The notes under the pieces: model-generated
What the model saw: only the letters and a program-made list of their open reading frames with translations
Told to the model about the DNA's origin: nothing
The model's database searches: none
From: Paramicrobacterium chengjingii
GTDB taxonomy: Bacteria > Actinomycetota > Actinomycetes > Actinomycetales > Microbacteriaceae
Assembly (NCBI RefSeq): GCF_011751765.2
Contig: NZ_CP061169.1
Location: 3,472,001-3,536,000, forward strand
DNA: 64,000 nt
Direction of reading: 5' to 3'
Position numbers and translations under genes: made by a program
Shown: in pieces, positions 8,406 to 28,879 of the stretch
Layout of the letters: every line of letters begins with the position of its first letter
Position numbering within the stretch: position 1 is the stretch's first letter

Positions 8406-9782
8406 ATGTCTGACGCATCGAACGTTGCCTCGCAGGCAACCCAAACCGACATGAAGAGAGTCGCGGTCGCGACCATCATCGGCACGACGATCGAATGGTA
8501 CGACTTCTTTCTCTACGCCAATGCGGCCGGCCTGCTCTTCGCTTCGCTGTATTTCGAACCACTGGGCCCGCAGGCTGCCATTCTTCTCTCGTTCGCCTCC
8601 GTCGGCGTGAGTTTTCTCTTCCGACCGCTCGGCGCGTTCATCGCCGGACATCTCGGCGACAAGATCGGCCGCAAGACCATGCTGGTGTGGACGCTCATTC
8701 TCATGGGAGCATCCACAACGCTCATCGGCCTGCTGCCCACGCACGCCGTCATCGGCGCAGCGGCACCGATCATCCTCGTGCTTCTGCGTATTCTGCAGGG
8801 ACTGTCCACGGGAGGTGAATGGGGCGGCGCCGTGCTTATGGCCGTCGAGCATGCACCCGCCGATAAGCGCGGACGCTTCGGTGCGTTCCCGCAGATGGGC
8901 GTTCCGCTCGGACTGCTGCTGGCGTCGGGAGTTCTCGCACTCATGACCGGTGTTATCTCCCCCGGTGAGGCGTTCGTCGAGTGGGGCTGGCGCATCCCGT
9001 TTCTGCTGAGCATCGTGCTCGTCGTCGTCGGAATCATCGTGCGCCGCAGCGTCGAGGAGTCGCCGGTCTTCGCCGAGATGGCGGCGAAGAAGGAGAAGGC
9101 GCAGATGCCGATCATCCAGTTGTTTCGCAAGCACTGGCTGCTCGTGATCCTCGCCGCCCTCACGTTCGCCGGCAACAACGCGGCGGGCTACATGACGACG
9201 GGCGGATTCTTGCAGGGCTACGCCACGCGGCCCCTCGATGAGGGCGGACTCGTCGGCATGGAGCGCACTCCTGTTCTCATCGCCGTCACCGTCTCCTCCG
9301 TGGTATGGCTGGTATTCACGTGGTTCGGCGGCTGGCTCTCAGACAAGATCGGGCGCCGCAAGACCTACATCACCGGTTGGATCGTCTTTCTCATTACCGT
9401 GTGGTTTCTTTTCCCACTCGTCGAGACCGGCAGCGCGTGGCTGTTCTTCGCGGGGATCGCCCTCTTCACAATCGGCAACGGGCTCACCTACGGCCCCCAG
9501 GCTGCGTATTTCACCGAGCTGTTTCCCGCGTCGATCCGTTACTCCGGCGTCTCAATCGCCTACGCGATCGGCACTGTACTCGGCGGCGCATTCGCCCCGC
9601 TGATCTCCGCGTGGATCGTGCAGACGACCGGCACCTCCCAGGCCGTCGCCTGGTACATTGCGGGCGTCATGGTCATCGCGTTCATCGCGACGCTGCTGCT
9701 GCGCGACCGCACGCGCATCCCGCTCGGTCCAGAACACGAGGCGGAGCAGGCCAAGCACCCCATCTACGGCTTCAGCAAGTAG
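8406..9782 (+). CDS. MHS-family metabolite:proton symporter
   Basis: Major facilitator of the metabolite:H+ symporter (MHS) family, 458 aa, twelve helices. Family hallmarks are TTIEWYDFFLYANAAG near the N-terminus, the loop GHLGDKIGRK between helices 2 and 3, and RILQGLSTGGEWGGA. Relatives carry shikimate, citrate, alpha-ketoglutarate, proline/betaine or tricarballylate (TcuC). ATG at 8406 is preferred over 8388 because GGGAG lies 7 nt before it. The gene faces a GntR gene that belongs to a tricarballylate-dehydrogenase-like operon, so an organic acid is a reasonable guess for the substrate. A convergent terminator separates the two. Confidence 0.9.
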   Translation: MSDASNVASQATQTDMKRVAVATIIGTTIEWYDFFLYANAAGLLFASLYFEPLGPQAAILLSFASVGVSFLFRPLGAFIAGHLGDKIGRKTMLVWTLILMGASTTLIGLLPTHAVIGAAAPIILVLLRILQGLSTGGEWGGAVLMAVEHAPADKRGRFGAFPQMGVPLGLLLASGVLALMTGVISPGEAFVEWGWRIPFLLSIVLVVVGIIVRRSVEESPVFAEMAAKKEKAQMPIIQLFRKHWLLVILAALTFAGNNAAGYMTTGGFLQGYATRPLDEGGLVGMERTPVLIAVTVSSVVWLVFTWFGGWLSDKIGRRKTYITGWIVFLITVWFLFPLVETGSAWLFFAGIALFTIGNGLTYGPQAAYFTELFPASIRYSGVSIAYAIGTVLGGAFAPLISAWIVQTTGTSQAVAWYIAGVMVIAFIATLLLRDRTRIPLGPEHEAEQAKHPIYGFSK

Positions 9783-9799
9783 CCGCGACTTCACAAGAG

Positions 9800-9836
9800 A
9801 AGGCGGGCGGATGCTGTCGCAGCACCCGCCCGCCTT
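9800..9836. terminator. Terminator between convergent MHS and GntR genes
   Basis: Arms 9800-9810 and 9826-9836 form an 11-bp perfect stem rich in GC, with an inner GCTG-TCG-CAGC hairpin in the loop. Ends are AAGG/CCTT, so it could work in both directions for the convergent genes. Confidence 0.75.
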
Positions 9837-9852
9837 CGCCGACACCGAGCTT

Positions 9853-10473
9853 TCAGCGCTGCTGCGCATACAGCTGCAGCCTGATGTCACGGGCGCGCGA
9901 CATGTGCTGCTCCGCAATTTGCTCTGCGGCATCCGAATCGCGATCGGCAATGGCCGAAATAAGCTCATCGTGTTCCGAGAGGGCGGACTCCCAGCGGTCC
10001 TCCACCGACAAGGTGGTTGTTGGGTAGCGAAGCAGGTGCACACTCAGCCGCTCAAGTTGGTCAATAAGCGTCTGATTGTGACTCGCCGCCCAGATCGACT
10101 CGTGAAACCCTCTGTTCGTGTCTGCGCGGAGCTCTGCGTCCGCCAGATTCGACATTTCGTCTCGCGCCGCGTGAATGCGGGCGAGGTCCAAGTCGGTGCG
10201 CCTTTTTGCCGCTGCCCGAGCTGCGAGCCCCTCGAGATCGATTCGCACCTCGTAGATATCGAGAATCTCTTCTGGGGTGCTCCCCTTCACCTGCATTCCC
10301 CGTGGGGTCCGCTCGACGAGCAGGTCCAGTTCCAACCGGTGAAGAGCTTCACGAATGGGGGTTCTGCTCGTGCCGTAGCGCTTCCCGAGTGCAGTCTCAC
10401 CAAGGCCGTCACCCGGCATAAACTCGCCCGAAATGATGTCAGCGCGCAGCCGATCGTAAACGCTCCTCGGCAT
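9853..10473 (-). CDS. GntR-family regulator (FadR/FCD type)
   Basis: GntR regulator of 206 aa. The winged helix is at residues 1-63 with the classic GETALGKRYGTSRTPIREAL, followed by an FCD ligand domain. FCD histidines are seen at 124 (RGFH), 168 (SEHDE) and 190 (EQH); the position four before His124, often Asp in metal-binding members, is Asn120. The start at 10473 has GAGGG 5 nt upstream; longer upstream extensions are not family-like. It lies 52 bp downstream of a TcuA-like flavoprotein gene on the same strand, so probably the two form an operon. The best candidate targets are two matching dyads in the divergent gap at 12011-12195. Confidence 0.9.
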   Translation of the reverse strand: MPRSVYDRLRADIISGEFMPGDGLGETALGKRYGTSRTPIREALHRLELDLLVERTPRGMQVKGSTPEEILDIYEVRIDLEGLAARAAAKRRTDLDLARIHAARDEMSNLADAELRADTNRGFHESIWAASHNQTLIDQLERLSVHLLRYPTTTLSVEDRWESALSEHDELISAIADRDSDAAEQIAEQHMSRARDIRLQLYAQQR

Positions 10474-10525
10474 CGATCCCTCACTCGCTTGGCGACAGAC
10501 TCTCTTATCGGAGCCCAACTCTAAC

Positions 10526-11995
10526 TTACGCGTGCGAGCCAGCGCGCCGGCCGAAGACCATTCCCGCGGCCAGACCTGAACCCCCAGGGTAGTTGTTGCT
10601 GAAGAGGCCGCCCAACATCTCTCCACAGACGAAGAGTCCTTCAATGCGGTTTCCCGATTCATCGAGCACATGCCCATCGACGTCGCTCTTGAGTCCACCG
10701 AAGGTGAAGGTTACGCCGCAGGTCACCGGGTAGACGTAGAACGGTGCGGTGTCGATCGCGGACGCCCAGTTGCTCTTCGTCGGCTGCACACTCGAGCTTC
10801 GCAAGTCTCTAATCGTCGGATCGAAGGGGCGCGATTCGTCGATGTTCGCGTTAAACTCAGTGACCGTGCGCGTGAACCCCTCAACGTCGATGCCAGCCGC
10901 TTCGGCAACGCCCTCGAGAGTGTCAGCGGTGAACTCAGAGATTGCCGGCATCTCATACTCTTCCGAGCGGAGCAGAGGGCGGGACTTCGCGTCGAAGACC
11001 TGGTAGCCGACGTTGCCCGGCTGCTTCAGAATCTCCCTGCCGAATTTCGCGTAGGTGTAGTTGCGGAAGTCTTCGCCCTCGTCGACGAATCGGGCACCGT
11101 CCTTGTTGACGATGATGCCGAACGGGTAGCCTCCGCGCGTCAAACGATTGGTGAGTTCACGATTGCTTTCGTTGTTCGGAGTCAAGGCGTCCCACTGGAC
11201 GCTGTGGGCGCTGCCCCAGTCCCCGGCACGGTCAGCTCCCGCTTTGAGGCCAGCCTCAATCAATGTCCCGGTGTTGCACGGCGTGCCACGCAGCTTGGCG
11301 TGCCCCCAGCCTTCGCCGAGGTACTTTTCGCGCATCGCAACGTTCGCCTCGAACCCTCCTGCGGCGAGAATGATGGATTCAGCGCGGTACTCGCGCGTCT
11401 CTCCGCCTGCGTCGACCCTGACGCCAACGATGCGTTCGTTCTCCGCGACCAGGTCGACGACGTTGCAGTCGTACAGGACCTTCTCGCCCAACCTCTCGGC
11501 AATCGCCACGTGATCTGCGATCAGTCCTTCACCCCCGCCCGTATTGCCAACGTGAAGCCCACCCCAGAAGAGGTACGTGCCGTCAGGGCGATCGTATGCC
11601 TGGCGTTCATACATCAGCCGGTACTTCATGCCCAATGAATGCAGCCACCGCACGGCGCCATTGCTTTCAGAGACAAGAACTCGAGTGAGCTCCGAATCGT
11701 TGCGGCCTTCGGTCACTCGTTCCATGTCGCCGGTGTAGTCCTGCTCGGTATAGGGAGGCACCTCTGTGACACGATGACGCTCGTCCTCGTCCAGAATGTC
11801 TCGCAGGTCGTCCAATCCGTTATGCGAGATGCGGGTGGCACCGGCGGTGTAATAGCTGTTTCCGCCCGAAGACTCCTGAGATGCCTTCTCGAGAACAAGC
11901 ACTGATCGCCCTCGTTCCGCCGCCGCGTGCGCTGCACTGAATCCGGCGTTCCCGCCTCCGACGACGATGACGTCTGCGTCACGTGAGTTCATCAT
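10526..11995 (-). CDS. Tricarballylate-dehydrogenase-like flavoprotein (TcuA family)
   Basis: FAD-dependent oxidoreductase of the fumarate reductase/succinate dehydrogenase flavoprotein superfamily, 489 aa. The FAD dinucleotide fold DVIVVGGGNAGFSAAHAA is at the N-terminus, followed by SGGNSYYTAGATR, and the C-terminus has NNYPGGSGLAAGMVFGRRAG. The overall pattern matches TcuA, which oxidises tricarballylate to cis-aconitate in Salmonella. The usual partner TcuB (iron-sulfur electron carrier) is not encoded anywhere in this window. I chose ATG at 11995; 11992 is equally possible, and the frame also opens with TTG at 12004. Divergent from the dehydrogenase gene at 12249. The true substrate may be another unsaturated or saturated polycarboxylate. 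Confidence 0.85.
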   Translation of the reverse strand: MMNSRDADVIVVGGGNAGFSAAHAAAERGRSVLVLEKASQESSGGNSYYTAGATRISHNGLDDLRDILDEDERHRVTEVPPYTEQDYTGDMERVTEGRNDSELTRVLVSESNGAVRWLHSLGMKYRLMYERQAYDRPDGTYLFWGGLHVGNTGGGEGLIADHVAIAERLGEKVLYDCNVVDLVAENERIVGVRVDAGGETREYRAESIILAAGGFEANVAMREKYLGEGWGHAKLRGTPCNTGTLIEAGLKAGADRAGDWGSAHSVQWDALTPNNESNRELTNRLTRGGYPFGIIVNKDGARFVDEGEDFRNYTYAKFGREILKQPGNVGYQVFDAKSRPLLRSEEYEMPAISEFTADTLEGVAEAAGIDVEGFTRTVTEFNANIDESRPFDPTIRDLRSSSVQPTKSNWASAIDTAPFYVYPVTCGVTFTFGGLKSDVDGHVLDESGNRIEGLFVCGEMLGGLFSNNYPGGSGLAAGMVFGRRAGSHA

Positions 11996-12010
11996 GTATT
12001 CCAATCATCT

Positions 12011-12030
12011 CGTATACTGCTGTATACAAT
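12011..12030. promoter_or_regulatory. GntR-type operator, copy 1
   Basis: CGTATACTGCTGTATACAAT. Read on the minus strand it matches the site at 12176-12195 at 17 of 20 positions. It contains GTATAC twice and lies 16 bp before the flavoprotein start, where it could block transcription. The pattern fits the TnGTnnACnA style of FadR-type GntR operators. Confidence 0.65.
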
Positions 12031-12175
12031 AACGTGAAGAGCATTCCTTCTTCAACTCGCATCCCTCGAGACGAGGGGTCACATGCTCACACCAGCAACT
12101 CAAACTCTGCGCCCTGTTCACGCCGTTCTCTCGCACCGCTCCCGTCGTGGACGATCTTCGATCGATCCATTTTCA

Positions 12176-12195
12176 ATTGTGTACAGTGGTATACG
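12176..12195. promoter_or_regulatory. GntR-type operator, copy 2
   Basis: ATTGTGTACAGTGGTATACG, 54 bp before the dehydrogenase start at 12249 and in inverted orientation to copy 1. Together the two sites bracket the divergent promoters, the arrangement expected for coordinate repression of both genes by one GntR protein. Confidence 0.65.
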
Positions 12196-12248: not shown

Positions 12249-13325
12249 ATGCAGAACTCCCAGAAGCTGACCCTTGCCGCGATCCCCGGGGACGGTATCG
12301 GCCCAGAGCTTGTCGATGCCGCGCTTGTGGTGCTGAACGCCGCCCTCACTGCGGATGGCGTGGACCTCGAGGTCGTGCAGGAGCGCGCGGGGGCCGAGGT
12401 ATACCGGGAGACTGGCTCGGCGCTTCTTCCCGGTGCGCTCGAGCGACTCGCTGCCGTCGACGGCGTGATCAAAGGTCCGGTCGGGCTGCCCGATGTTCGT
12501 AAGCCCGATGGAACCGAGGGAGGCCTCCTCGGGGGGCTGCTGCGCAACGGGCTCGACACCTTTGCCAATGTGCGCCCGATCCAACTGCGCTCCGGAGTGC
12601 CGTCGCCGACGACGCATTCGTCGCACGACATCGATTACGTCATTGTGCGCGAGAACACCGAAGGGCTCTACCTCGCCCGAGGCTCTGGCGTGCGCAATGA
12701 TCATGCGGCAGCCGACCAGATGATGATGACGCGCCACGGCGTCGAGCGAATCGTACGCTTTGCCTTCGATACAGCGCGTTCGCGATCCGGGGCACCCGCA
12801 GACGACGTGCAACGAGTGACCTGCGTCGACAAGAGCAATGTGCTTCGCTCGTTCGCGTTCTTCCGGCAGATCTTCGACGAGATCAGCTCGGAGTACCCAG
12901 AGATCGAGGCCACGCATATGTACGCGGATGCCGCTGCCGGCGCACTCGTGCAGAATCCAGCACAGTTCGATGTACTTGTGATGGAAAACTTCCTCGGCGA
13001 CATCCTGAGTGACCTGGGCGCCGCTACGGCGGGAGGACTCGGAATGTGCGGTTCCGGAAATATCGGAAGTGCGACCTCGTACTTCGAGCCGATACATGGA
13101 AGTGCGCCATCGCTCACAGGAACTGACACCGCGAATCCGGTGTCCGAGATCCTGTGCGGCGCCATGATGTTGAGACACTGCGGTCACTCCCTCTCGGCGG
13201 TTCGCATCGAGACCGCCGTTGAGCAGGCCTTCGTCTCGGGGGACATCCAACTCGACTCCCGCGGTTGTCCCATTGCCGGCACAATCGCGGCAGCCGAGTC
13301 GATCGTGAAGCTTCTGAACGTCTAA
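12249..13325 (+). CDS. Isocitrate/isopropylmalate dehydrogenase family protein
   Basis: NAD(P)-dependent beta-decarboxylating dehydrogenase of 358 aa. Family motifs: IPGDGIGPELVDAAL at the N-terminus, VRENTEGLY (with the catalytic tyrosine), VDKSNVLR (catalytic lysine), DAAAGALVQNPAQFDVLVMENFLGDI split around the metal-binding aspartates, and FEPIHGSAP. The family oxidises and decarboxylates 2-hydroxyacids with a 3-carboxylate: isocitrate, isopropylmalate, homoisocitrate, tartrate. Which of these applies cannot be read off, but context favours a catabolic polycarboxylate. ATG at 12249 is preferred because AGGA lies 8 nt upstream; 12240 is the alternative. Its stop codon overlaps the stop of the convergent gene. 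Confidence 0.87.
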   Translation: MQNSQKLTLAAIPGDGIGPELVDAALVVLNAALTADGVDLEVVQERAGAEVYRETGSALLPGALERLAAVDGVIKGPVGLPDVRKPDGTEGGLLGGLLRNGLDTFANVRPIQLRSGVPSPTTHSSHDIDYVIVRENTEGLYLARGSGVRNDHAAADQMMMTRHGVERIVRFAFDTARSRSGAPADDVQRVTCVDKSNVLRSFAFFRQIFDEISSEYPEIEATHMYADAAAGALVQNPAQFDVLVMENFLGDILSDLGAATAGGLGMCGSGNIGSATSYFEPIHGSAPSLTGTDTANPVSEILCGAMMLRHCGHSLSAVRIETAVEQAFVSGDIQLDSRGCPIAGTIAAAESIVKLLNV

Positions 13326-14296
13326 GTGGTGAGCACGCTCGGATCCATGAGTTCATCAACCGGAAGCGCTGCGTTCAGATAGCCCTCCAACTGATCTGCC
13401 GCGATTTCGGCGAATTCCTCGAAGACCTCCTCGACAGTCCATCCGATATGGGGAGTCGCGATCACATTCGGCAGCCTCCGCAACTCTGAGTCGGGCGCGA
13501 GCGGTTCTGACGCGAACACGTCGAGTCCCGCAGCAGAGATCGGGCCATTCTTCAATGCTTCGATGAGTGCGGGTTCGTCGATGATCGCGCCTCGCGCTGT
13601 GTTCACGAGAACCGAGCCGGACTTCATCTTGGCGAGCTTGGCAGCGTCAAGCAGACCTCTGGACTCGTCGCTGAGCCGAAGGTGCACGCTCACGACATCG
13701 CTCACGCCCAGCAGGTCGTCGAGCGGCAACGCCTCCACGCCGTCGGGAAGCTCTTGACTCGTTCTGTTCCACACGACAACCTTCATACCGAAGGCGTGAG
13801 CCAGTTTCGCCACTGATTTTCCGTGTCGACCGAAGCCGAGAATCCCCATCGTGCGGCGACTGAGCGTTCTGCCAAGATATGGCTTCCACTCGCCCTCGGC
13901 CATCGAGTCCACGGCGGATCTGACGTGCCTCAGGGCGCCGATCGCGAGGGCGAATGTGAGTTCGGGGACGGCCGCTCGTGGCCCTACCCCCCGCCGTCCC
14001 AGTGCAACGGGAATGCCCCGCGCCGTCGCGTGGGCACCATCGAGGTGGTAGGCATGTCCACCGGCCTGCAGCACGAGCCGGAGGTTTGGCATCCGGTCAA
14101 GCTCATCCGCGCCGAGTTTCGAACGCTCGCGCACGGCCATGAGCACATGGACGTCGACGAGCTCAGCATCCGGAATCTCCGACAGCGACGTGGTAACCAC
14201 ACGCACGTGAGCCTTCTCACGCATTCGCCGCACTCCATCGGATGCCTCGAGCAGCCCTTCAGCATCGTTCAAAACAAGGACATTAGTCTCACTCAT
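13322..14296 (-). CDS. D-2-hydroxyacid dehydrogenase
   Basis: NAD(P)-dependent D-2-hydroxyacid dehydrogenase of 324 aa, which interconverts 2-keto acids and D-2-hydroxyacids. The Rossmann turn is GILGFGRHGKSVAK, and the three catalytic residues sit in VNTARGAIID (Arg), FASEPLA (Glu) and TPHIGWT (His). Length is typical for the glyoxylate/hydroxypyruvate/phosphoglycerate group. It is the last gene of a five-gene minus-strand operon (isomerase, TctC, TctA-B, flavoprotein, this), and its ATG overlaps the flavoprotein stop by 4 bp. The TAG stop overlaps the TAA of the convergent dehydrogenase gene, so there is no room for a terminator. Confidence 0.9.
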   Translation of the reverse strand: MSETNVLVLNDAEGLLEASDGVRRMREKAHVRVVTTSLSEIPDAELVDVHVLMAVRERSKLGADELDRMPNLRLVLQAGGHAYHLDGAHATARGIPVALGRRGVGPRAAVPELTFALAIGALRHVRSAVDSMAEGEWKPYLGRTLSRRTMGILGFGRHGKSVAKLAHAFGMKVVVWNRTSQELPDGVEALPLDDLLGVSDVVSVHLRLSDESRGLLDAAKLAKMKSGSVLVNTARGAIIDEPALIEALKNGPISAAGLDVFASEPLAPDSELRRLPNVIATPHIGWTVEEVFEEFAEIAADQLEGYLNAALPVDELMDPSVLTT

Positions 14297-15807
14297 GATT
14301 GCGCCTTTCCCGCCAGGGCCGCATGACGCCCCGCCTTCCTGCCGAACACGGCACCCCGAACCAGTCCTGCTCCCGCGGGGTAATTGTGGTAAAAGAAGCC
14401 GCCTGTGACTTCACCCGTTGCGAAAAGCCCAGGCATCACACGGCCGGCGAAGTCGACGGCCCTCGCCTGCTCGTCAACGGCGATGCCACCGTAGGTGAAG
14501 GTGATTCCGCACGTCACCGTGTAGGCGGTGTAGGGGCCCTGGTCGATACGCTGAGCCCAATTCGACTTCGCCGGCTGGCCCGAGGGTTTCGCTGAGAGCC
14601 CGTCACGCCCGAACGGATCGAACTCGCCGTCTGAGCAGGCCGCGTTGTAGTCGTGAACCGTGCGCTCAACGGCCTCGGCCGGCACACCGAGCTTCGCGGC
14701 CAGTTCGCTCAGCGTGTCCGCCACGATGGGCGTCCCCGTCGAATAGCGCGGCTCAAGCAGGTGCGTCGTCTTGCTGTCAAAGAGCTGGAACGCCCAGGCT
14801 CCCGTCTGTGCGCGCACCGACTTTCCAGTCTTCGCATAGGTGAGCCACACGTGGTCTTCGCCTTCGTCGACGAACCGCTGCCCCTCCGCGTTGATGAGAA
14901 GAGCAAAGGGGTAGCTGTATCGACTCATCTTGTCTGTAACCTTCAGATCGCCGACGTCAGGTGCATTCGCGTCAAGCGGCACCGCGTGGCATCCGCCCCA
15001 ATGGCCAACAGCTTTCGCTCCGGCATTCATGGCAGCCGCGAGTCCGGCGCCGGTGTTGAACCGGGTTCCGCGCACCTTCACAAGGTCCCATCCGGGCCCG
15101 AGCCATTTCTGTCGCATCTGCGGGTTCGCCTCAAAGCCTCCCGAGGCGAGCACGACGTTTCCGCGCACCTCCTGATGAGAATCCTGCCGCTGCACTTTCA
15201 CCCCTGTGCACGTCGAGCCTTCCATGATCAGTTCACTCACCGGGGCGTCGTACCACACCTCGATTCCAGCCTCCTCGACAGCGTGGAAGAGGTCTTCGAT
15301 GAGTCCGATGCCCTCGTCCGCCGCTCGGAAGGCGCCACCTGGCGGCAGCCGGTATCGCTGTCCCTCGTCGATCTTCTCCGGATCAATGAGTTTGCCGACA
15401 GCAAGCTCGAACTTCACGCCCTTCTCCACCATCCACGAGACCGTCTCGTACGACTCTTCGATCACGGCGGAGGTGAGAACGTCAGAATTGCGTCCGCGCG
15501 AGACCCGAGCGTATTCGTCTGAGTACGTCTCGACGGTGTACGGGTCAAGGTCGACCCGGTCTTTCCACTTCGCAGACTCCTCGGTGATGAGCGGCAGCAG
15601 CGACTCCATGCCGTCGTGCGCGATACGGAAGATCCCTCCCGTGAACCGGCTGTTTCCGCCCCGCTCCTCCCACGGAGCCGCCTCGAGAACGAGAACGCGC
15701 GCTCCGTTCTCGTGAGCTGAGAGGGCCGCAACGAGCGCGGCGTTCCCCGCTCCGACGATGACGACGTCGACATCGGTGCCGTCAACCGCATTTACCTGAC
15801 CAGTCAT
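14293..15807 (-). CDS. Second TcuA-like FAD-dependent dehydrogenase
   Basis: Flavoprotein of 504 aa in the same family as the gene at 10526-11995 and clearly its paralogue. FAD-binding DVVIVGAGNAALVAALSAHE lies near residue 13, then RGGNSRFTGGIFRIAHDGME, the mid-protein LASGGFEANPQMRQKWLG and the C-terminal FFYHNYPAGAGLVRGAVFGR. TcuA oxidises tricarballylate; other relatives reduce or oxidise C=C bonds next to carboxylates. It lies directly downstream of the TctA-B transporter gene (24 bp) and overlaps the D-2-hydroxyacid dehydrogenase start. Having a second copy in a Tct operon argues for a substrate related to, but distinct from, that of copy 1. No TcuB partner is present. Confidence 0.85.
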   Translation of the reverse strand: MTGQVNAVDGTDVDVVIVGAGNAALVAALSAHENGARVLVLEAAPWEERGGNSRFTGGIFRIAHDGMESLLPLITEESAKWKDRVDLDPYTVETYSDEYARVSRGRNSDVLTSAVIEESYETVSWMVEKGVKFELAVGKLIDPEKIDEGQRYRLPPGGAFRAADEGIGLIEDLFHAVEEAGIEVWYDAPVSELIMEGSTCTGVKVQRQDSHQEVRGNVVLASGGFEANPQMRQKWLGPGWDLVKVRGTRFNTGAGLAAAMNAGAKAVGHWGGCHAVPLDANAPDVGDLKVTDKMSRYSYPFALLINAEGQRFVDEGEDHVWLTYAKTGKSVRAQTGAWAFQLFDSKTTHLLEPRYSTGTPIVADTLSELAAKLGVPAEAVERTVHDYNAACSDGEFDPFGRDGLSAKPSGQPAKSNWAQRIDQGPYTAYTVTCGITFTYGGIAVDEQARAVDFAGRVMPGLFATGEVTGGFFYHNYPAGAGLVRGAVFGRKAGRHAALAGKAQS

Positions 15808-20203: not shown

Positions 20204-20273
20204 CGCTCTCGCCTTTCGTCAGATCATCGCGCCAACGCAGAACGTGGCATCTGTCCAATATGACGACATTCAT

Positions 20274-20285
20274 TTACTTAAGCAA
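20274..20285. promoter_or_regulatory. AT-rich dyad in a divergent promoter gap
   Basis: TTACTTAAGCAA, a nearly perfect 12-bp dyad in the AT-rich 201-bp gap between the Tct operon and the Ldh2 gene. A related TTTATTAAGTTTTGC follows about 30 bp later. It may be a regulator site (LysR gene at 22702 is the nearest candidate); evidence is weak. Confidence 0.3.
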
Positions 20286-20404
20286 TATCGAAGTTCTGGA
20301 TGGTTTATTAAGTTTTGCTACAGGCTAAATTCCCGTGCAAGGATCGTGATATTACCGCCGCCTTCGCCGCGGGAGACTGATCGCCGACGAGAGGATGCAC
20401 TCGT

Positions 20405-21451: not shown

Positions 21452-21526
21452 GAAATGCAGGAAGTCGGGCCTCAGAAGCGGCAACAATGAGGATGCCGTT
21501 GTCGTGATCGCGAGGGGATGTGTGGC

Positions 21527-22717
21527 GTGACACCGAGAACCCAATTTGCCCTCGTGCTCGTCCAGACCGTTCTCGTTCAGACGCTCTCGTTCGGGCTGAG
21601 GCCGACCTTGTCGTACGCTGTGCTCGATGCCGGCGGATCGGGAAGTCTTCTCGGTGTACTGACGGCGGCCTTCGCGCTTCCGTCACTCTTCCTTGCACTT
21701 CCGGTTGGCCACATCATGGATCGAATCGGCGAACGTCCCGTTCTGGTCATCGGCCCGCTGTCGATGCTCGCAGCCTCGGTCATCGGCTTCATCTTCACCG
21801 ACAGCATTGCCCTTCTGATCCTGGCGACGGCGTTCGTCGGCATCGGCCATCTCTCAACTGTGCTCTCGACGCAAGCCGTGCTGGCAAATAGATTTGCGAG
21901 CGGGCGTGCAGACTCAGTATTCGGCTATTACACGTTCGCCGCGTCACTCGGGCAGACGTTTGGCCCGCTCCTGCTATCACTTCCCAGTGATCGGCCCGAG
22001 ATGCCTCCCATCGGCACGATTCTCATCGTCTCCATCACGGCAAGTCTCATCATGTTTGCGGCGTCGCTCTTCATCTCGAGCAGTCCCCACCTGCGTGCGT
22101 CGAAGACGGGCAATTTGGCATCGAACACGCTCGCGCTCCTCCGAATCAAGGGCGTCATTCGTGCGTTGATTGCCACGAGCATTGTTCTCGCGACGATCGA
22201 TCTTTTTGTCGTATACATGCCGCTTCTCGGCCACGAACGCGGGCTTACAACCGTCGTCGTCAGTGTCATGCTTGTCGTTCGGGCGGCAGCGTCAATGGTT
22301 TCGCGATTGTTCCTCGGAGTTCTCGTGCGGCGCATCGGGCGTCGACGACTCGCGGTCGGAAGCATCGCAGTGTCGGCACTTGCCTTGGGGGCCATCGCAC
22401 TGCCAACGCCGCAAGCAGCACTCATCACGTTCTCCGCCGTGTACGGATTCTTCATCGGCATCTGTCAGCCCGTGACGCTGTCGTGGATCTCAGAACTGGC
22501 ACCGGCCGGCTCCCGTGGACTGGCGATGTCGCTGCGTCTTGCGGCAAATCGAATCGGTCAAACCGTGATCCCTGCGACCCTCGGAGTGCTCGCTGTCGCC
22601 GCAGGGGCCGCGGGCGTTCTCGTGGCCGCCGCGGGCACCCTTGCTGTGGCAGCATGGTCGAGCGCAGCCTTGCCTGGACCATCGACGCGACCGCCGCCGG
22701 ATCACGACGTGGGCTGA
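21527..22717 (+). CDS. MFS transporter in the polycarboxylate island
   Basis: Major facilitator of 396 aa with about twelve hydrophobic segments. The loop GHIMDRIGERPVLVIGP after helix 2 and VSRLFLGVLVRRIGRRRL in the middle are the two half-repeats of the MFS signature. GTG at 21527 is favoured because GAGGGG lies 9 nt upstream; an ATG at 21518 has no room for a ribosome site. It follows the Ldh2 gene and its 3-prime end overlaps the convergent LysR gene by 16 bp. Function could be uptake or efflux of an organic acid; nothing in the sequence decides. Confidence 0.83.
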   Translation: MTPRTQFALVLVQTVLVQTLSFGLRPTLSYAVLDAGGSGSLLGVLTAAFALPSLFLALPVGHIMDRIGERPVLVIGPLSMLAASVIGFIFTDSIALLILATAFVGIGHLSTVLSTQAVLANRFASGRADSVFGYYTFAASLGQTFGPLLLSLPSDRPEMPPIGTILIVSITASLIMFAASLFISSSPHLRASKTGNLASNTLALLRIKGVIRALIATSIVLATIDLFVVYMPLLGHERGLTTVVVSVMLVVRAAASMVSRLFLGVLVRRIGRRRLAVGSIAVSALALGAIALPTPQAALITFSAVYGFFIGICQPVTLSWISELAPAGSRGLAMSLRLAANRIGQTVIPATLGVLAVAAGAAGVLVAAAGTLAVAAWSSAALPGPSTRPPPDHDVG

Positions 22718-23634
22718 CCGCCAGCTCCGAACCCCTGGGCAGCTTCGATCAGCATCTTCACCATGGCAAGATCTGCTGGATTAGAGACCCCATCGGCCAA
22801 TCTCGCCAGCATGATGCGGCGCCGTGGAACGATCCCCTTGAGGCGTATTACCTTGACGTCGCTGCGCTGCACGCTGAGCGCGAGTCGCGGAACCAGCGCA
22901 ACCCCGAGCCCCACCGCCACCATGGCCTGGGCCTCCTGGTAGTCATTTGCCTCGTAGGCGACCTTTGGCTCGAATCCCACTTTGTTCGACGCACGAATTA
23001 TTGCTTCCATGACGGGATGCCGTTCGGCCCGAACGACCCACATCTCGTTCACGAGCTCGCTCACAGAGACCGAATCTCGATCGGCCATGGGGTGCGTGTG
23101 CGAAACAACCAGATCTGTTGGGTCGTCCATGAGGTGAATGAGATCCAAGTTGGGGTGATCGATCCTCGACCACGGGTATTCCCAGAGGAGACTCATCGAA
23201 ATCTCTCGACGGCTCAGCATGGCGAGCAATGGTGCTTTGCGGAAGCTCCTCACGGTGAGTTCGACGAAGGGATGCTCCTTGCGAAACCTGTTGATGGCCG
23301 CAGGCAGGAGCGACGATCCGGCTGTAGGAAACGTGCCCATGCGCAGGGCGCCTGCACGCAGTCCGATGATGTCGTCGAGTGAATGCTGCAGCGATGTGAT
23401 CTGCCCCCGCATCCGTTCTGCGTGCTCCACGGTTGCGCGACCAGCATCCGTCAAGAAGATTCCTCGACTGTGCCGGTGAAGCAGGGGCACTCCCGCTTCA
23501 AGCTCCAACTTTCGAATCTGTTGCGAGATCGCCGATACGGAGTATCCCGCTGCCTCAGCAGCAGCTGTCATGCTTCCTTCGTGAGCAACGGTTGCGAGCA
23601 GCAGGATCCTCTCAGCACTGGCTATTCCGATCAC
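22702..23634 (-). CDS. LysR-family transcriptional regulator
   Basis: LysR-type regulator of about 310 aa. The winged helix is SAERILLLATVAHEGSMTAA with AEAAGYSVSAISQQIRKLE, followed by a periplasmic-binding-like effector domain (LRMGTFPTAGSSLLPAAI, VALVPRLAL). Start choice is uncertain: GTG at 23634 gives a normal LysR N-terminus with GAGGAG 11 nt upstream; GTG at 23646 is too close to it, and the frame is open to an ATG at 23691. It is divergent from the CoA-transferase gene, which is the usual arrangement for a LysR activator and its target, and a dyad lies in the gap. The co-inducer is probably an acid or acyl-CoA intermediate. Confidence 0.87.
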   Translation of the reverse strand: MIGIASAERILLLATVAHEGSMTAAAEAAGYSVSAISQQIRKLELEAGVPLLHRHSRGIFLTDAGRATVEHAERMRGQITSLQHSLDDIIGLRAGALRMGTFPTAGSSLLPAAINRFRKEHPFVELTVRSFRKAPLLAMLSRREISMSLLWEYPWSRIDHPNLDLIHLMDDPTDLVVSHTHPMADRDSVSVSELVNEMWVVRAERHPVMEAIIRASNKVGFEPKVAYEANDYQEAQAMVAVGLGVALVPRLALSVQRSDVKVIRLKGIVPRRRIMLARLADGVSNPADLAMVKMLIEAAQGFGAGGQPTS

Positions 23635-23759: not shown

Positions 23760-23784
23760 ATTGTGCTCATTAATGATCCGCAAT
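23760..23784. promoter_or_regulatory. Dyad in the LysR/CoA-transferase gap
   Basis: Outer arms ATTG and CAAT enclose a perfect 10-bp palindrome TCATTAATGA (23767-23776), immediately before the CoA-transferase start. Position and shape fit an autoregulated LysR target, though it does not show an unambiguous T-N11-A box. Confidence 0.35.
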
Positions 23785-23797
23785 GAAGGGCCTGCCA

Positions 23798-25171
23798 ATG
23801 TCGGCAATCACAGAACAACTCCTCGATCAGATGCTCGTTCCGCTGCGAGGACTCGTAACAAGAGATCATGTGACGCTCACACAGGGTGAGTCTCTCTCCT
23901 CGATCTTCGCGGTCAGCGACATCGCCCAGGCCTCAATTGCCACAGCAGGAGCCGCTGTGTCGGCGCTTCGCCGGGAGGAAAGTTCCATTGCGCCGATCGT
24001 GACTGTCGATCGCAATTTAGCGAACTCCTGGTTCTTTCGCTCGATCCGCCCGATCGGCTGGTCGATGCCTGAAGTTTGGGAAGGGGTGACCGGCGATTAT
24101 CAGACCAGCGACGGCTGGATTCGTTTGCATACCAACAAGCCCAACCATCTGGCAGCAGCACTCAGAATTCTTGAGGCTCCAGAGGACCGAGAGATCGTCC
24201 GTCGGCGTGTCGAAGCGTGGAACTCCACGGAGCTCGAAACGGCAATCGTCGAAGCGGGTGGAGCCGCAGCCGCGATGCACTCGCGCGAAGAATGGCTCAC
24301 GCATCCGCAAGGTGAGGCCGTGCGTGCGGAGCCGCTCGTGGATTTCGAGGCTAGCGAGGCAACGAACCGCACACCCACTCAGATCGGCACCGCCGAGAGC
24401 CCGCTTGCTGGCATCAGGGTCCTTGACCTCACACGCGTGCTCGCCGGACCCGTGGGCACCCGACTGCTCGCCGGGTGGGGTGCCGATGTTCTCCGTATCG
24501 ACCCGCCGGGTTTCTGGGAGCCTTCCGCCGAACCAGAAGTAACCCTCGGCAAACACGTCGCGCGTCTCGATCTACGTACAAAAGAGGGAAAGGACATTTT
24601 GCTTGGGCTATTGGCTGAGGCTGACGTCTTCGTTCACGGATTTCGTCGCGGCGCCCTCGACGACCTGGGTCTCGGCAAGCACGTGCGTGAAAGCATCCGA
24701 CCTGGCTTGGTCGATGTATCGCTTACGGCCTACGGATGGACCGGGCCGTGGACCGCCCGCCGAGGATTCGACAGCCTCGTACAAATGAGCAACGGGATAG
24801 CCCATCTCGGGCAGAAAAAAGCTCGTTCCGGGAAGCCGCTCCCGCTACCCGTACAAGCACTCGACCACGCGACTGGCTACCTCATGGCATCCGCCGCTAT
24901 TACCGGTCTCATCCTGCGGCAAACACAGGGCATCGGCTCGTCCTGGCACGCATCCCTTGCGCGTACCGGTGAGCTCATGATCGATGCCGGCATCAGCGAG
25001 GAGTTCGGGAAGCAGCCTGCCTTCATCGCCGCAGAAGAGGATGCACCGATCGAGCAAACGCCCTGGGGGGATGCCAAGCGCATACCGCCGCATATACGCG
25101 TCGAGGGCGCCCCATTACGCTTCAGAACCAGCGCACGCCCACTCGGCACCGACCCCGCAACCTGGTCATAG
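23798..25171 (+). CDS. CaiB/BaiF CoA-transferase with permuted domain order
   Basis: Class III (CaiB/BaiF) CoA-transferase, 457 aa. The Rossmann-like core that normally opens these proteins begins only at about residue 205 (LAGIRVLDLTRVLAGPVGTR, then GADVLRIDPPG, then ARLDLRTKEGKDILL). The region before it (about 90-195) contains YQTSDGWIRLHTNKPNH and SREEWLTHPQGEAV, which resemble the small domain usually found at the C-terminus. The likely catalytic aspartate is Asp356 in QALDHATGYL. The start at 23798 has AAGGG 7 nt upstream. First gene of an operon with two MmgE/PrpD genes and a GntR gene. It probably activates a dicarboxylate or tricarboxylate intermediate as its CoA ester; donor and acceptor are unknown. 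Confidence 0.8.
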   Translation: MSAITEQLLDQMLVPLRGLVTRDHVTLTQGESLSSIFAVSDIAQASIATAGAAVSALRREESSIAPIVTVDRNLANSWFFRSIRPIGWSMPEVWEGVTGDYQTSDGWIRLHTNKPNHLAAALRILEAPEDREIVRRRVEAWNSTELETAIVEAGGAAAAMHSREEWLTHPQGEAVRAEPLVDFEASEATNRTPTQIGTAESPLAGIRVLDLTRVLAGPVGTRLLAGWGADVLRIDPPGFWEPSAEPEVTLGKHVARLDLRTKEGKDILLGLLAEADVFVHGFRRGALDDLGLGKHVRESIRPGLVDVSLTAYGWTGPWTARRGFDSLVQMSNGIAHLGQKKARSGKPLPLPVQALDHATGYLMASAAITGLILRQTQGIGSSWHASLARTGELMIDAGISEEFGKQPAFIAAEEDAPIEQTPWGDAKRIPPHIRVEGAPLRFRTSARPLGTDPATWS

Positions 25172-25178: not shown

Positions 25179-25184
25179 CTTCTG

Positions 25185-25203: not shown

Positions 25204-25232
25204 TGGAAGGTGAGATCTGTTGCTAGTGTCAG

Positions 25233-25253
25233 AATTGTCGACAGCCGACAATT
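25233..25253. promoter_or_regulatory. GntR-type operator candidate, copy B
   Basis: Perfect 8-bp arms AATTGTCG (25233-25240) and CGACAATT (25246-25253) around a 5-bp centre. It contains TTGTCGACA, which fits the TnGTnnACnA style of FadR/FCD regulators. It lies 36 bp before the MmgE/PrpD start at 25289, where a bound protein would cover the promoter. Confidence 0.6.
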
Positions 25254-25288
25254 TATTTGCCACCGGCCGAACCACGGAGACTCCGCAC

Positions 25289-26632
25289 ATGACACTTGCA
25301 TCAGCGCTTGCCGCACGGGTCACCTCACTCACGGCGAACGACCTCACGCCGGATGCCGAGAGGCGCCTGAAGGATCTTGTCTTTGACTACCTCGGCGTCG
25401 CCCTACGCGGCAGCCAGGCAGAATCCGGACGAATCGTTCGCGAGTACGTCGCTGCACAGGGCGGAGCTGACGATTCGACTGTCATCGGACAACCCGGGCG
25501 CGTACCCGCATCACAGGCGGCATTTGCTAATGCGATTTCTGAACATAGCATCGAACTCGACGACGTTGATGAGCTGGCACTCTTTCACTTTGGCCCGCCC
25601 ATCGTGTCAACCGCTCTCGCCGTCGCAGAACGGCAGCGCTCGAGCGGGCTCGAGTTTTTGATCGCCGTGCTTGCGGGCTGCGACATCATGGAGCGCCTGA
25701 GCCGCGCGACGAACAATGAGCTTCGCAACCGTGGGTTTCACACGACCCCGACGTGCGGGGTCTTTGCCTCGACAGCCACCGCGGGGCGACTCCTTGGGCT
25801 CACCCCGCAGCAACTCACGAACGCCTTCGGTCTCGCGGGAGCGCAGGCCTCTGGGCTCATGGAAATGTACGGGCCATCCATGCAGAAGCGCTTCAACCCG
25901 GGGCCGGCGGCGCGCAACGGAATCGTTGCGGCGGAACTTGCGCAGCGCGGCTTCACCGGGGCCGACACAATCTTCGAAGGAGAGCGAGGCTTCGGTCAGG
26001 CCTTCGCGGGCAAGCTCGATGAGCGCGCAGCCCGAGACAGGCTCGACTCCGGGTTTCCGATCATCGTCGAGCACAAACCGCATTCCGCGGCTCGCCCCAT
26101 TCACAATGCGATTGATTGTGCCCTTGACATCAGAGCTCGTGCCGGGGCATCCGTCGATGCGATCGAGACGATCGTCGTCAAACGGCATCCGGATTGGGCT
26201 CATTATCATCTCAATGCGCATCCGCAGACGTTCCATGAGGCACAGGTCAGCCTGCCGTACGCGGTAGCGGCGACGTTCGTCTTCGGCGCGGCCATGCCCG
26301 ACCAATTTGCAGATCAGAATCTGGAGCGTACTGACATCCGACGCCTCGTGGCCACAACGACAGTTGAACCGGATGCCTCATTGCAGCGAGGGGTCTCATG
26401 CGATATGACCGTCACGTTTGCCGATGGGTCCTCTCTGCGCAGCGTTGTCGATCATCCCAAAGGCTCGAAGGAGAACCCACTGTCACGCGATGAGTTGAGC
26501 GCAAAGTTCAGGGGATTGACCGACGGACTCCTCCCCGACGGAGCCGCGGAGCGCATCAGACGCACTGTCGACGACCTGGAGACTCTCGACGATATGACGA
26601 ATCTTCTCTCACTGTTCACGGAGACACAGTGA
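25289..26632 (+). CDS. MmgE/PrpD family protein, copy 1
   Basis: MmgE/PrpD family protein of 447 aa. The family contains 2-methylcitrate dehydratase (PrpD), cis-aconitate decarboxylase, and iminodisuccinate epimerase-like enzymes, all acting on polycarboxylates. Typical segments are AAFANAISEHSIELDDVDELALF split by the active-site region, the all-helical N-terminal half (DLVFDYLGVALRG), KRFNPGPAARNGIVAAELA, and the smaller C-terminal lid. ATG at 25289 is preferred; GGAG lies about 10 nt upstream. The next gene, a paralogue, overlaps its end by 4 bp. In the island it would dehydrate, isomerise or decarboxylate a tricarboxylate; which of these is unknown. Confidence 0.87.
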   Translation: MTLASALAARVTSLTANDLTPDAERRLKDLVFDYLGVALRGSQAESGRIVREYVAAQGGADDSTVIGQPGRVPASQAAFANAISEHSIELDDVDELALFHFGPPIVSTALAVAERQRSSGLEFLIAVLAGCDIMERLSRATNNELRNRGFHTTPTCGVFASTATAGRLLGLTPQQLTNAFGLAGAQASGLMEMYGPSMQKRFNPGPAARNGIVAAELAQRGFTGADTIFEGERGFGQAFAGKLDERAARDRLDSGFPIIVEHKPHSAARPIHNAIDCALDIRARAGASVDAIETIVVKRHPDWAHYHLNAHPQTFHEAQVSLPYAVAATFVFGAAMPDQFADQNLERTDIRRLVATTTVEPDASLQRGVSCDMTVTFADGSSLRSVVDHPKGSKENPLSRDELSAKFRGLTDGLLPDGAAERIRRTVDDLETLDDMTNLLSLFTETQ

Positions 26633-28014
26633 CAATGCCTTCCTCCGAACAGACATCTCCAACCGCCTCGCTCGCAACCTTCGCTGCGGAGCTCAGCTAC
26701 GACAGCATCCCGGCTCCGGTCATCGAGCACACCAAGCTGTGCCTGCTCGACACGATCGGATGCGGCCTTTTCGGCACGACCCTGCCCTGGGTTCGCATCG
26801 TGCAGCAGACTGTGCTCGCGACTGACGAGACAGCACGAGCCGAACTCTGGGCGCGTGGTGAGCGCGTCTCTGTGACGAACGCAGCCCTCGTGAACGGCAT
26901 GGCAATCCATGCCTTCGAGCTCGACGATCTTCACCGTGATTCCATCGTTCACCCTGGCTCCGTCGTCGTCAGCGCCGCACTTGCGGCGGCGAGACTCCGC
27001 TCAGCTCCCGTCTCGGGTCGGAGCCTTCTGACGGCCATGGTCGCCGGGTACGAGGCAGCCGCGCGCGTCGGGCGATCGATGGGCGCCGCCCACCTGGTTC
27101 ACGGGTGGCATCCCACTGGAACGCATGGCACGTTTGGAGCGGCGGTGGCCGCAGGCAGCATCCTCGGACTGAACCCGAAACGCATGCTCAACGCTATGGG
27201 AACCGCAGGATCACAATCTTCCGGCTTGATGTCGTCCCAGTTCTCGTCAATGGTGAAGCGATACCACGCCGGGCACGCGGCCCAGGCCGGACTGATGTCT
27301 GCCCTTCTCGCAGACCGAGGCTTTCTCGGCATCCCGGACATCCTCGAGAACCCGTACGGCGGCTACCTCTCCACGTTCTCGCCGACGTCGAATCCGGATC
27401 TCATTCTCTCGGGGCTCGGCGAAGACTGGCAGATCGGCGAAGTGGGATTTAAGCCGTATTCGACGAATGGAAGCTGCCACCCCACGATCGACGCCCTCCT
27501 CGACATGCGGAAGCACTTTGGGATCACGGGCGACGATGTCGCGGCGGTGAGAATCCGCTGCAGCACCGCAACATTCAAGCATGTCGGTTGGTCGTACCAG
27601 CCAGAGAGCGTGACAACCGCTCAGATGAACCTTCCCTATATCGTCTCGGTGGTGCTGGCAGACGGCGATGCGTTCGTCGATCAGTTCTCACCAGAGCGGA
27701 TCGTCGACCCTCAGCTCGTCGACTTCAGCCGCAGGGTCACCATTGAGGCCGACCCCGCGATCGACGCAGGCGGCGATGCGATGCGTCACGCCACCTACCT
27801 CGAGGTCGACCTGAAGGATGGCCGCACGCTGACCGATGAACGTGTTCACGCGAAAGGAAGCGCCGACTTTCCGATGAGCGTCAACGATGTGCGCGCAAAG
27901 TTTAGAAAACTGGCTCGCGCGACGCTGTCTGAACGGCATATCGACAGGGTTGAGCAGGTGATCCTCGCTGCAGAAGCCGCAACGATCGACGATCTTCTCG
28001 CGCTCATTGAATGA
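26629..28014 (+). CDS. MmgE/PrpD family protein, copy 2
   Basis: Second MmgE/PrpD protein, 461 aa, a paralogue of the preceding gene. It keeps stronger family motifs: VTNAALVNGMAIHAFELDD, then HPGSVVVSAALAAA, and HGWHPTGTHGTFGAAVAAG, which is the helical-core signature of PrpD and cis-aconitate decarboxylase-like proteins. GTG at 26629 overlaps the upstream stop and sits 5 nt after GGAGA, so I chose it; ATG at 26635 is the alternative. Tandem paralogues suggest two consecutive steps or a heteromer. It is followed after 121 bp by a GntR gene on the same strand. Confidence 0.88.
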   Translation: MTMPSSEQTSPTASLATFAAELSYDSIPAPVIEHTKLCLLDTIGCGLFGTTLPWVRIVQQTVLATDETARAELWARGERVSVTNAALVNGMAIHAFELDDLHRDSIVHPGSVVVSAALAAARLRSAPVSGRSLLTAMVAGYEAAARVGRSMGAAHLVHGWHPTGTHGTFGAAVAAGSILGLNPKRMLNAMGTAGSQSSGLMSSQFSSMVKRYHAGHAAQAGLMSALLADRGFLGIPDILENPYGGYLSTFSPTSNPDLILSGLGEDWQIGEVGFKPYSTNGSCHPTIDALLDMRKHFGITGDDVAAVRIRCSTATFKHVGWSYQPESVTTAQMNLPYIVSVVLADGDAFVDQFSPERIVDPQLVDFSRRVTIEADPAIDAGGDAMRHATYLEVDLKDGRTLTDERVHAKGSADFPMSVNDVRAKFRKLARATLSERHIDRVEQVILAAEAATIDDLLALIE

Positions 28015-28076
28015 TCAACGCGAAAGCGAGTTGCCCGAAGTGGCGAACAGCCATCGGGTAAGTTGAGCAGCAGCAA

Positions 28077-28116
28077 GACCCGCCCACAACCAGCCCGATT
28101 TGTCGAGGGGCGGGTC
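28077..28116 (+). terminator. Hairpin before the second GntR gene
   Basis: GACCCGCCC (28077-28085) pairs with GGGCGGGTC (28108-28116) around a 22-nt loop, in the 121-bp gap between the second MmgE/PrpD gene and the GntR gene. No T-tract follows; it may lower read-through into the regulator gene. Confidence 0.4.
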
Positions 28117-28135
28117 CCGATACTCTGGAGCAAAA

Positions 28136-28879
28136 ATGCCTCAGCGCCGCACACCACACGCGCAGAATGTCATGGTGCCCAGCGCATTCGAAACGCGCTC
28201 GTTCGCCCAGACAGCGGTGGGTCTGCTGCGCGAGATGATCCTGAGCGGCGGGTATGGCCCTGGGGAACGCTTGAACGAATTGGCGATCTCTGAGCAACTT
28301 CAGATCAGCCGCTCGCCCATCAGAGAAGCCCTGCAGACCCTTGCGGGCCAGGGCCTCGTGCATTTCATTCCGGGTCGCGGCGCCTTCGTCACGGACTTCG
28401 ACATCGATTCCATTCGCGAACTCGGCGAACTGCGAATCGCACTCGAATCACGGGCTGCCCGGCTTGCGGCCTCACGCGCCACGATCGCACAGTTGAACGA
28501 GATTCGGCTGATCCTCACGCACTCCGAGAAGGCGATTCGATCAGGCGAGATCGACGACTTGCTCGACTATTCTGACCGCACGATTCAATCGGGTGGAGAT
28601 TACCCTCAGAAGCTCGACTTCCACCAAGCCGTGCTGAATGCGTCACACAACCAACGTCTCGTGGACGCCGCCGATACTGCGGCGACGCAGTTTCGACTCG
28701 CTCGCGCGCGCACGGGTCGTGAGGCCGCGTGGGCAGCGGAAGCGCACGAGGAGCACCGTGTGATCGTCGAAGCGTTAGAGCGTCACGATCCTGAGACGGC
28801 GGATGTTGCGATGGAAGAACATCTGGCAAACAGCGTGAGCCGGAGCATCGCTCACATTGAGGCGACGTCGGGCACCTAG
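28136..28879 (+). CDS. GntR-family regulator (FCD type) closing the operon
   Basis: GntR regulator of 247 aa. The winged helix (about 20-85) has NELAISEQLQISRSPIREAL and QGLVHFIPGRGAFV; the FCD domain follows with LDFHQAVLNASHNQRLV and AHEEHRVIVEAL. The residue four before the first FCD histidine is Lys, not the Asp seen in metal-binding members, so it may bind its effector without that ligand. ATG at 28136 is chosen because GGAG lies 7 nt upstream. As the last gene of the CoA-transferase/PrpD operon it probably represses that operon through the dyads at 25185-25253. Confidence 0.9.
   Translation: MPQRRTPHAQNVMVPSAFETRSFAQTAVGLLREMILSGGYGPGERLNELAISEQLQISRSPIREALQTLAGQGLVHFIPGRGAFVTDFDIDSIRELGELRIALESRAARLAASRATIAQLNEIRLILTHSEKAIRSGEIDDLLDYSDRTIQSGGDYPQKLDFHQAVLNASHNQRLVDAADTAATQFRLARARTGREAAWAAEAHEEHRVIVEALERHDPETADVAMEEHLANSVSRSIAHIEATSGT

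Follow-up and report, generated by a model that had tools for sequence, protein, structure and literature searches.

Gene content and organization of the island

Open reading frame (ORF) calling and hidden Markov model scans of a 64-kb stretch of the Paramicrobacterium chengjingii genome (a single contig of 3.62 Mb, NZ_CP061169.1), hereafter referred to as the window, were used to assign gene identities, strands and limits, and showed a polycarboxylate-type island of dehydrogenases, isomerases, transporters and regulators, including two TcuA-type flavoproteins (Table 1). Every gene named in an initial annotation of this stretch was found to be present. That annotation had described an island for polycarboxylates that matches no single named pathway, and both points hold in our analyses.

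The island is modular and is not a single linear pathway. Module I consists of the MHS symporter, GntR1, TcuA1 and an isopropylmalate/isocitrate dehydrogenase-type (IMDH-like) enzyme, along with two GTATAC-N4-GTATAC sites. Module II consists of the PrpF-TctC-TctAB-TcuA2-D2HDH row, whose genes are separated by 56, 71, 24 and -4 bp, and of the Ldh2-MFS pair on the opposite strand. Module III is an exit cassette that adjoins the LysR gene and is different in each genome; in the window, it is represented by CaiB-MmgE1-MmgE2, with gaps of 48 and 2 bp. The gaps suggest the transcription units TcuA1-GntR1 (-), IMDH (+), PrpF-TctC-TctAB-TcuA2-D2HDH (-), Ldh2-MFS (+), LysR (-), CaiB-MmgE1-MmgE2 (+) and GntR2 (+). 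The tripartite tricarboxylate transporter is complete, with TctA and TctB encoded by one ORF and all three components above the Pfam cut-offs, TctB (PF07331) and TctC (PF03401) narrowly so.

Table 1. Features of the island and of the aconitase gene downstream, in window coordinates
Feature	Position	Strand	Evidence or remark
MHS-family metabolite/H+ symporter (module I; TcuC-family relative)	8406..9782	+	MFS_1/Sugar_tr; TIGR00883 393 bits (cut-off 443)
GntR1, GntR/FCD regulator	9853..10473	-	TcuA1 strand, 52-bp gap
TcuA1, FAD-dependent dehydrogenase	10526..11995	-	NF006130 538.9 bits (cut-off 369)
Predicted GntR1 operator GTATAC-N4-GTATAC near TcuA1 start	12012..12027		0 mismatches
Predicted GntR1 operator near IMDH start	12179..12194		1 mismatch
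IMDH/ICDH-type beta-decarboxylating dehydrogenase	12249..13325	+	best model NF002898, 281 bits (cut-off 393)
D-2-hydroxyacid dehydrogenase (D2HDH)	13322..14296	-	PF02826 2.1e-58; 4-bp overlap with TcuA2
TcuA2, TcuA-type flavoprotein outside the TcuA1-type group	14293..15807	-	NF006130 495.9 bits (cut-off 369)
TctA-TctB fused permease, tripartite tricarboxylate transporter	15832..17808	-	PF01970 2.1e-112; PF07331 6.2e-7
TctC binding protein	17880..18992	-	PF03401 1.7e-6
PrpF isomerase	19049..20203	-	PF04303 3.3e-121
PrpF/Ldh2 divergent promoter with conserved ACTTAAGC...TTAAG element	20204..20404		aligned in three species
Ldh2-type 2-hydroxyacid dehydrogenase	20405..21451	+	PF02615 1.9e-110
MFS transporter	21518..22717	+	PF07690; 78% and 53% identity in sister islands
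LysR regulator, TarR-like by neighbourhood	22702..23634	-
Family III CoA-transferase CaiB, apparently permuted (module III)	23783..25171	+	start may be 23798
MmgE1, MmgE/PrpD family	25220..26632	+
MmgE2, MmgE/PrpD family	26635..28014	+
GntR2, GntR/FCD regulator (module III)	28172..28879	+
PRK07229-type aconitase, candidate for the missing hydratase	42104..44047	+	NF005558 931 bits (cut-off 612); 13 kb outside island

Conservation and rarity of the island

Modules I and II are retained as a block in two other species. In P. agarici, 12 of the 16 island genes are found in syntenic order with 73-95% identity, and the island is flanked as in the window on both the MelA side and the Eis side. Cryobacterium tepidiphilum carries 13 of the 16 genes (46-76% identity), with the segment from LysR to MmgE2 inverted relative to PrpF. 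Homologous islands hold these genes together, not only separately, as expected if the initial annotation had correctly recognized a conserved island. The MHS symporter is 95% identical in P. agarici, GntR1 relatives directly follow TcuA1 in both species (84% in P. agarici and 46% in Cryobacterium), and the IMDH-like relatives in the sister islands show 81% and 66-69% identity. Because the block is retained in both species, chance adjacency was ruled out for modules I and II, and the conservation indicates an arrangement that is selected rather than accidental.

The genes beside LysR differ in all three species. The P. agarici island lacks CaiB, MmgE1, MmgE2 and GntR2 and has in their place a 1038-aa GlcD/YdiJ-like FAD and Fe-S protein; the single MmgE/PrpD gene of this genome (E≤0.001) lies outside the island. 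The C. tepidiphilum island lacks MHS, CaiB and GntR2, encodes an HpcH/HpaI aldolase between LysR and MmgE1, and has AbrB-family permease ORFs after D2HDH, one identified by Pfam and the second by position and similarity. The cassette is therefore CaiB with MmgE1 and MmgE2 in the window, HpcH aldolase with MmgE1 and MmgE2 in Cryobacterium, and the GlcD-like flavoprotein in P. agarici. No orthologue of the aldolase was seen elsewhere in the window genome, where the best matches show 34-36% identity. These three cassettes beside one regulator provide a natural comparison for working out the chemistry of the last step.

The island is rare. TcuA2 was found at E≤1e-60 in 2 of 5 genomes of the genus; PrpF was found at E≤1e-30 in 42 of 299 sampled genomes of the family, with identity above 43% in two of the 299, the window genome included (C. 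tepidiphilum was drawn from another collection). A recent horizontal acquisition limited to the window lineage is not supported, as both flanks are syntenic in P. agarici and a tRNA search of the 64-kb window found none; the island may have been transferred earlier. An Eis-like acetyltransferase gene (28930-30246, +) adjoins GntR2 and also flanks the P. agarici island. In addition, a SAM-IV riboswitch was identified at window positions 57872-57987 (+, 77.2 bits).

Two groups of TcuA-type proteins with different neighbours

Both TcuA proteins score above the NF006130 cut-off of 369, and neither reaches that of a second model, TIGR02485. In a FastTree phylogeny of 27 sequences, among which two loci that were read occur in duplicate, TcuA1-type and TcuA2 genes are split with a support of 1.00, and the window TcuA1 groups with other TcuA1-type genes. 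A second copy from Jiangella is deepest on the TcuA2 side, a placement that depends on midpoint rooting. For TcuA2, a phylum-wide search found 9 of 346 genomes at E≤1e-80, with one match besides the window above 48% identity (66%), and a class-wide search found 2 of 394 genomes at E≤1e-140, namely the window genome and one with copies of 70% and 57% identity.

These TcuA2 relatives belong to Egibacter rhizosphaerae (66%) and Jiangella asiatica (70% and 57%). The Egibacter TcuA2 region encodes Ldh2 (54%, less than 10 kb from TcuA2), D2HDH (38%), MmgE (32%) and IMDH-type (37%) homologues, together with AbrB permease, RraA-like, FAH and ASL-type lyase proteins; PrpF (43%), a PrpB-like lyase and TctC/TctA are found approximately 13-18 kb beyond this region. 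In Jiangella, contig C90 carries TcuA2, a PrpB-like lyase, MmgE and PrpF, and contig C58 carries TcuA2, a TcuA1-type gene, several MmgE genes, Ldh2, an IMDH-type gene, and genes for an RraA-like protein, a classical CaiB and a CitE-like protein. Within 10 kb of six TcuA2 genes, Ldh2 was found at 5/6, IMDH-type genes at 5/6, D2HDH at 4/6, PrpF at 3/6 and MmgE at 3/6 (the window's own MmgE1 falls just outside this limit); in the longer stretches read, PrpF and MmgE were each found at five of the six loci. Nine TcuA-type genes outside the islands, a count that excludes the TcuA1-type genes inside them, have within 10 kb Ldh2 in 0/9, IMDH-type genes in 1/9, MmgE in 2/9, PrpF in 1/9 and GntR in 6/9; the unequal lengths read favour the TcuA2 side somewhat, as four of the nine stretches end at contig ends and five reach approximately 6-12 kb a side, whereas the six TcuA2 loci extend at least 12 kb on each side. 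The sole IMDH-type neighbour among the nine lies, as read by eye, beside branched-chain amino acid genes.

TcuA-type proteins form at least two groups with different neighbours. TcuA2 itself has numerous relatives; of 8000 scored candidates, 7436 match it at E≤1e-100, and among the 120 relatives listed, 39 of the 41 that bear names are called tricarballylate dehydrogenase (hand count). If the TcuA2 set acts on another acid, many annotations would be wrong and one actinobacterial carbon source would be unnamed. With regard to chemistry, the position aligned with the proton-donor arginine of fumarate reductase is a tyrosine in both TcuA1 and TcuA2, and all 13 TcuA-type proteins aligned share a T-Y-A motif. 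This is more consistent with desaturation than with reduction. Among the loci read, the richest of this kind is a stretch of approximately 32 kb in genome G1139 (L169-L170), where both kinds of TcuA are found together with several MmgE/PrpD genes, CaiB, a CitE-like gene and two IMDH-type genes.

PrpF, the aconitase and the exit cassette

PrpF keeps Lys73 and Cys107 of Shewanella oneidensis PrpF, as seen in alignments to 3g7k, 2pvz and 5k87; in that protein, replacing either residue gave no growth on propionate alone (PMC5690661). A second PrpF of the window genome (G000:C1:3040000-3056000) lies beside an MFS gene. ABC-transporter genes, a 6PGDH-like gene and a gene for an LmbE-like protein, named by eye only, are also near, and the locus is possibly of the oxalomesaconate type.

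The window genome encodes three aconitase-family proteins, one of them downstream of the island (Table 1). This protein is 43% identical to an aconitase-family protein in another genome (G637), whose neighbours are a TcuA, a classical CaiB and an HMG-CoA-lyase-like protein. The stretches read from P. agarici contain no such aconitase, which was therefore rejected as a fixed partner of the island.

CaiB shows the family III CoA-transferase fold with the catalytic Asp region. CaiB relatives are widespread in the order (E≤1e-40 in 69 of 297 genomes), and 11 stretches of 16-20 kb anchored on them carry no other island enzyme or transporter gene, with one weak LysR match (29%). Since the loci of CaiB relatives carry no such genes, the CaiB-MmgE cassette seems to be an interchangeable exit rather than a fixed pathway end; the absence of CaiB from the P. 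agarici and Cryobacterium islands also ruled it out as part of the conserved island. The proposal in the initial annotation of a single pathway that joins all parts and leads to CoA transfer was therefore not supported, given also that the operators described below suggest separate modules.

For both MmgE1 and MmgE2, the best solved match is iminodisuccinate (IDS) epimerase, with cis-aconitate decarboxylase close behind. His99 of IDS epimerase is kept in both proteins, and the position of Tyr145 is occupied by Arg in MmgE1 and by Leu in MmgE2. Tyr145 has been linked to two-base isomerases (PMC12290011), and its loss suggests that a one-base, dehydratase- or decarboxylase-like reaction is more likely. 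A phylum-level search with MmgE1 gave matches in 6 of 396 genomes (E≤1e-55), none of them above 36% identity besides the window, so the set of MmgE1 partners could not be widened.

Candidate regulatory elements

The two GTATAC-N4-GTATAC sites between TcuA1 and IMDH, with 0 and 1 mismatch, are the only ones in the 64 kb at ≤1 mismatch; the chance expectation, even at ≤3 mismatches, is 3.13 sites per window. Two sites are also present in the 20-kb stretch from P. agarici, each with 1 mismatch and both in the TcuA1/IMDH region. As a predicted GntR/FCD operator, these sites would link TcuA1 with IMDH. The PrpF/Ldh2 region has a ACTTAAGC...TTAAG element common to the three species, and ACTTAAGCAA at 20276 is the only copy in the window at ≤1 mismatch (0.51 expected by chance). 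This element was sought at LysR/CaiB and not seen, and a shared operator for PrpF/Ldh2 and LysR/CaiB was rejected. The candidate operators suggest that the modules are separately controlled. The LysR protein itself shares 43-47% identity with LysR proteins whose genes adjoin PrpF in four further genomes.

Proposed function and alternative explanations

With moderate confidence, we interpret the locus as a modular island in which 1,2,3-tricarboxylates of the tricarballylate/aconitate type are broken down to feed the tricarboxylic acid cycle, and which joins two known logics. In module II, the Tct transporter would import the acid, PrpF would isomerise a double bond that is trans or misplaced, in the manner of TarA and PrpF, and TcuA2 would desaturate a saturated relative. 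Module I could act as a tcu-like unit in which MHS imports the substrate and TcuA1 makes an aconitate-type alkene. Hydration may be performed by an aconitase encoded outside the island, after which the IMDH-like enzyme would oxidatively decarboxylate an isocitrate-type acid. D2HDH and Ldh2 could form 2-oxoacids from hydroxyacid by-products or stereoisomers, perhaps working as an inverting pair, and module III would serve as an exchangeable exit for substituted succinates. Plain aconitate needs neither 2-hydroxyacid dehydrogenase, and this speaks most strongly for a hydroxy- or alkyl-substituted relative of aconitate as the true substrate. More tentatively, the TcuA2 group might mark an undescribed actinobacterial pathway for such a substituted tricarboxylate, in which TcuA2 and PrpF/MmgE would set the double bond, the D-/L-hydroxyacid dehydrogenase pair would invert a hydroxyl center, the beta-decarboxylating dehydrogenase would remove a carboxyl group, and interchangeable exits (CoA-transferase, aldolase, PrpB-like lyase or flavin dehydrogenase) would complete the route in different lineages. 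No publication describing this gene set was found among those listed, as judged by titles and the start of abstracts.

Several observations weigh against a tricarballylate/aconitate-type island. The best solved match of PrpF is 3-methylitaconate isomerase (E 6.2e-87), with PrpF slightly behind (1.6e-83), and PrpF, IMDH, Ldh2, D2HDH, MmgE1, MmgE2 and CaiB all score below every substrate-specific equivalog cut-off. The island contains no hydratase. The model for TcuB, the electron-transfer partner of TcuA, matches nothing in the window genome, although this is a weak test (TIGR02484; no control genome passed its cut-off either). In TcuA2, the carboxylate-binding residues of fumarate reductase are not conserved. 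The six TcuA2 loci include three close relatives and two from a single genome, so independent cases are few. The Egibacter stretch read with TcuA2 has no TcuA1-type gene, and in the stretches read, Jiangella C90 lacks Ldh2 and IMDH and C58 lacks PrpF. The Egibacter and Jiangella IMDH-type proteins are 34-37% identical to the window's, look like another subclade and differ in the presumed substrate loop; they need not be orthologous to it. Finally, the one operator match in Cryobacterium, with 2 mismatches, is at chance level (74 of 200 shuffles gave one match or more).

Branched C5-C6 dicarboxylates such as itaconate, methylsuccinate, methylitaconate or dimethylmaleate could instead be the substrates, with MmgE epimerising, CaiB activating to CoA and PrpF shifting the double bond. 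The solved match of PrpF noted above is consistent with this rather unlikely alternative, as is the membership of MmgE/PrpD and a CoA-transferase in a published methylsuccinate/itaconate set (PMC12290011). In Jiangella, one locus also encodes, near TcuA2 and MmgE, a classical CaiB and a CitE-like protein that scores below the cut-offs for CitE and RipC. However, itaconyl-CoA hydratase, acyl-CoA dehydrogenase and citramalyl-CoA lyase were not found in the island by the scans made, MmgE1 and MmgE2 are without the tyrosine of two-base isomerases, and the P. agarici island does without CaiB and MmgE. Degradation of N- or O-linked polycarboxylates of the iminodisuccinate type is improbable; even though IDS epimerase leads the solved matches of MmgE1 and MmgE2 and an ASL-superfamily lyase adjoins TcuA2 and MmgE at the Egibacter locus, no lyase of the ASL kind was seen among the scanned island genes of the window, and the epimerase tyrosine is not conserved.

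It is likewise rather unlikely that two or three unrelated catabolic units are merely adjacent. Separate candidate operators and regulators, the occurrence of TcuA1 and PrpF units apart elsewhere and a cassette beside LysR that changes with the species would agree with this, but modules I and II are adjacent in three species of two genera and a similar set is found within approximately 27 kb in Egibacter. TctC with TctAB and MHS are uptake-type systems, and the island has several oxidising enzymes; both make it very improbable that the island makes and exports an aconitate-type acid. This would resemble the tbr biosynthetic operon, which PrpF with an MFS transporter also fits (PMC11495376).

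Comparison with known systems

TcuA makes aconitate from tricarballylate, and the tcu operon consists of TcuABC. The island likewise has a TcuA above the NF006130 cut-off with an MHS transporter nearby. It differs in that this transporter scores 199.5 bits against the TcuC model (cut-off 445), in that the regulator is of the GntR/FCD type and in that two TcuA groups are present.

For the methylcitrate cycle (PrpBCD or AcnD/PrpF), PrpF scores 334.7 bits against the equivalog model TIGR02334 (cut-off 440.6), and the PrpD equivalog models give 22-53 bits against cut-offs of 458-950. Family scans on one member per cluster showed that methylcitrate-type PrpF clusters of Burkholderiales (among L005-L022) combine PrpF with TctC and MmgE/PrpD, as the island does, but many also carry a PrpB/ICL-like lyase and LeuCD-like proteins, which the island lacks. 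Many of these loci, with several TctC genes, appear to represent a methylcitrate- or dimethylmaleate-like set.

The itaconate/methylsuccinate cluster (PMC12290011) places MmgE/PrpD and a CoA-transferase side by side, as in the island. The island differs by its apparently permuted CaiB, its two MmgE proteins and the absence from MmgE1 and MmgE2 of the Tyr of the His and Tyr two-base pair; the other three enzymes were not seen in it.

The tar system imports trans-aconitate through TarB, isomerises it with the PrpF-family enzyme TarA and is activated by the LysR regulator TarR (PMC11495376). The island likewise has a transporter, a LysR regulator and a PrpF-superfamily isomerase with the catalytic Lys and Cys. 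However, its transporter is Tct and not MFS, its LysR lies approximately 2.5 kb from PrpF and is divergent from CaiB while Ldh2 is divergent from PrpF, and it adds TcuA, IMDH, D2HDH and Ldh2. Relatives in three genomes (G290, G014 and G163) have LysR divergent from PrpF and a transporter, close to the tarR/tarA/tarB layout. No other island genes accompany the LysR/PrpF/Tct units in the 20-kb stretches read from G290 and G014; in G163, LysR is divergent from a PrpF-MFS-TcuA1 row. The initial statement that the island cannot be matched to known routes was therefore too strong, as TcuA1 with MHS resembles tcu and LysR/PrpF/Tct resembles tar (PMC11495376), even though no single named pathway corresponds to the whole. 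The island is a new combination of known types of parts.

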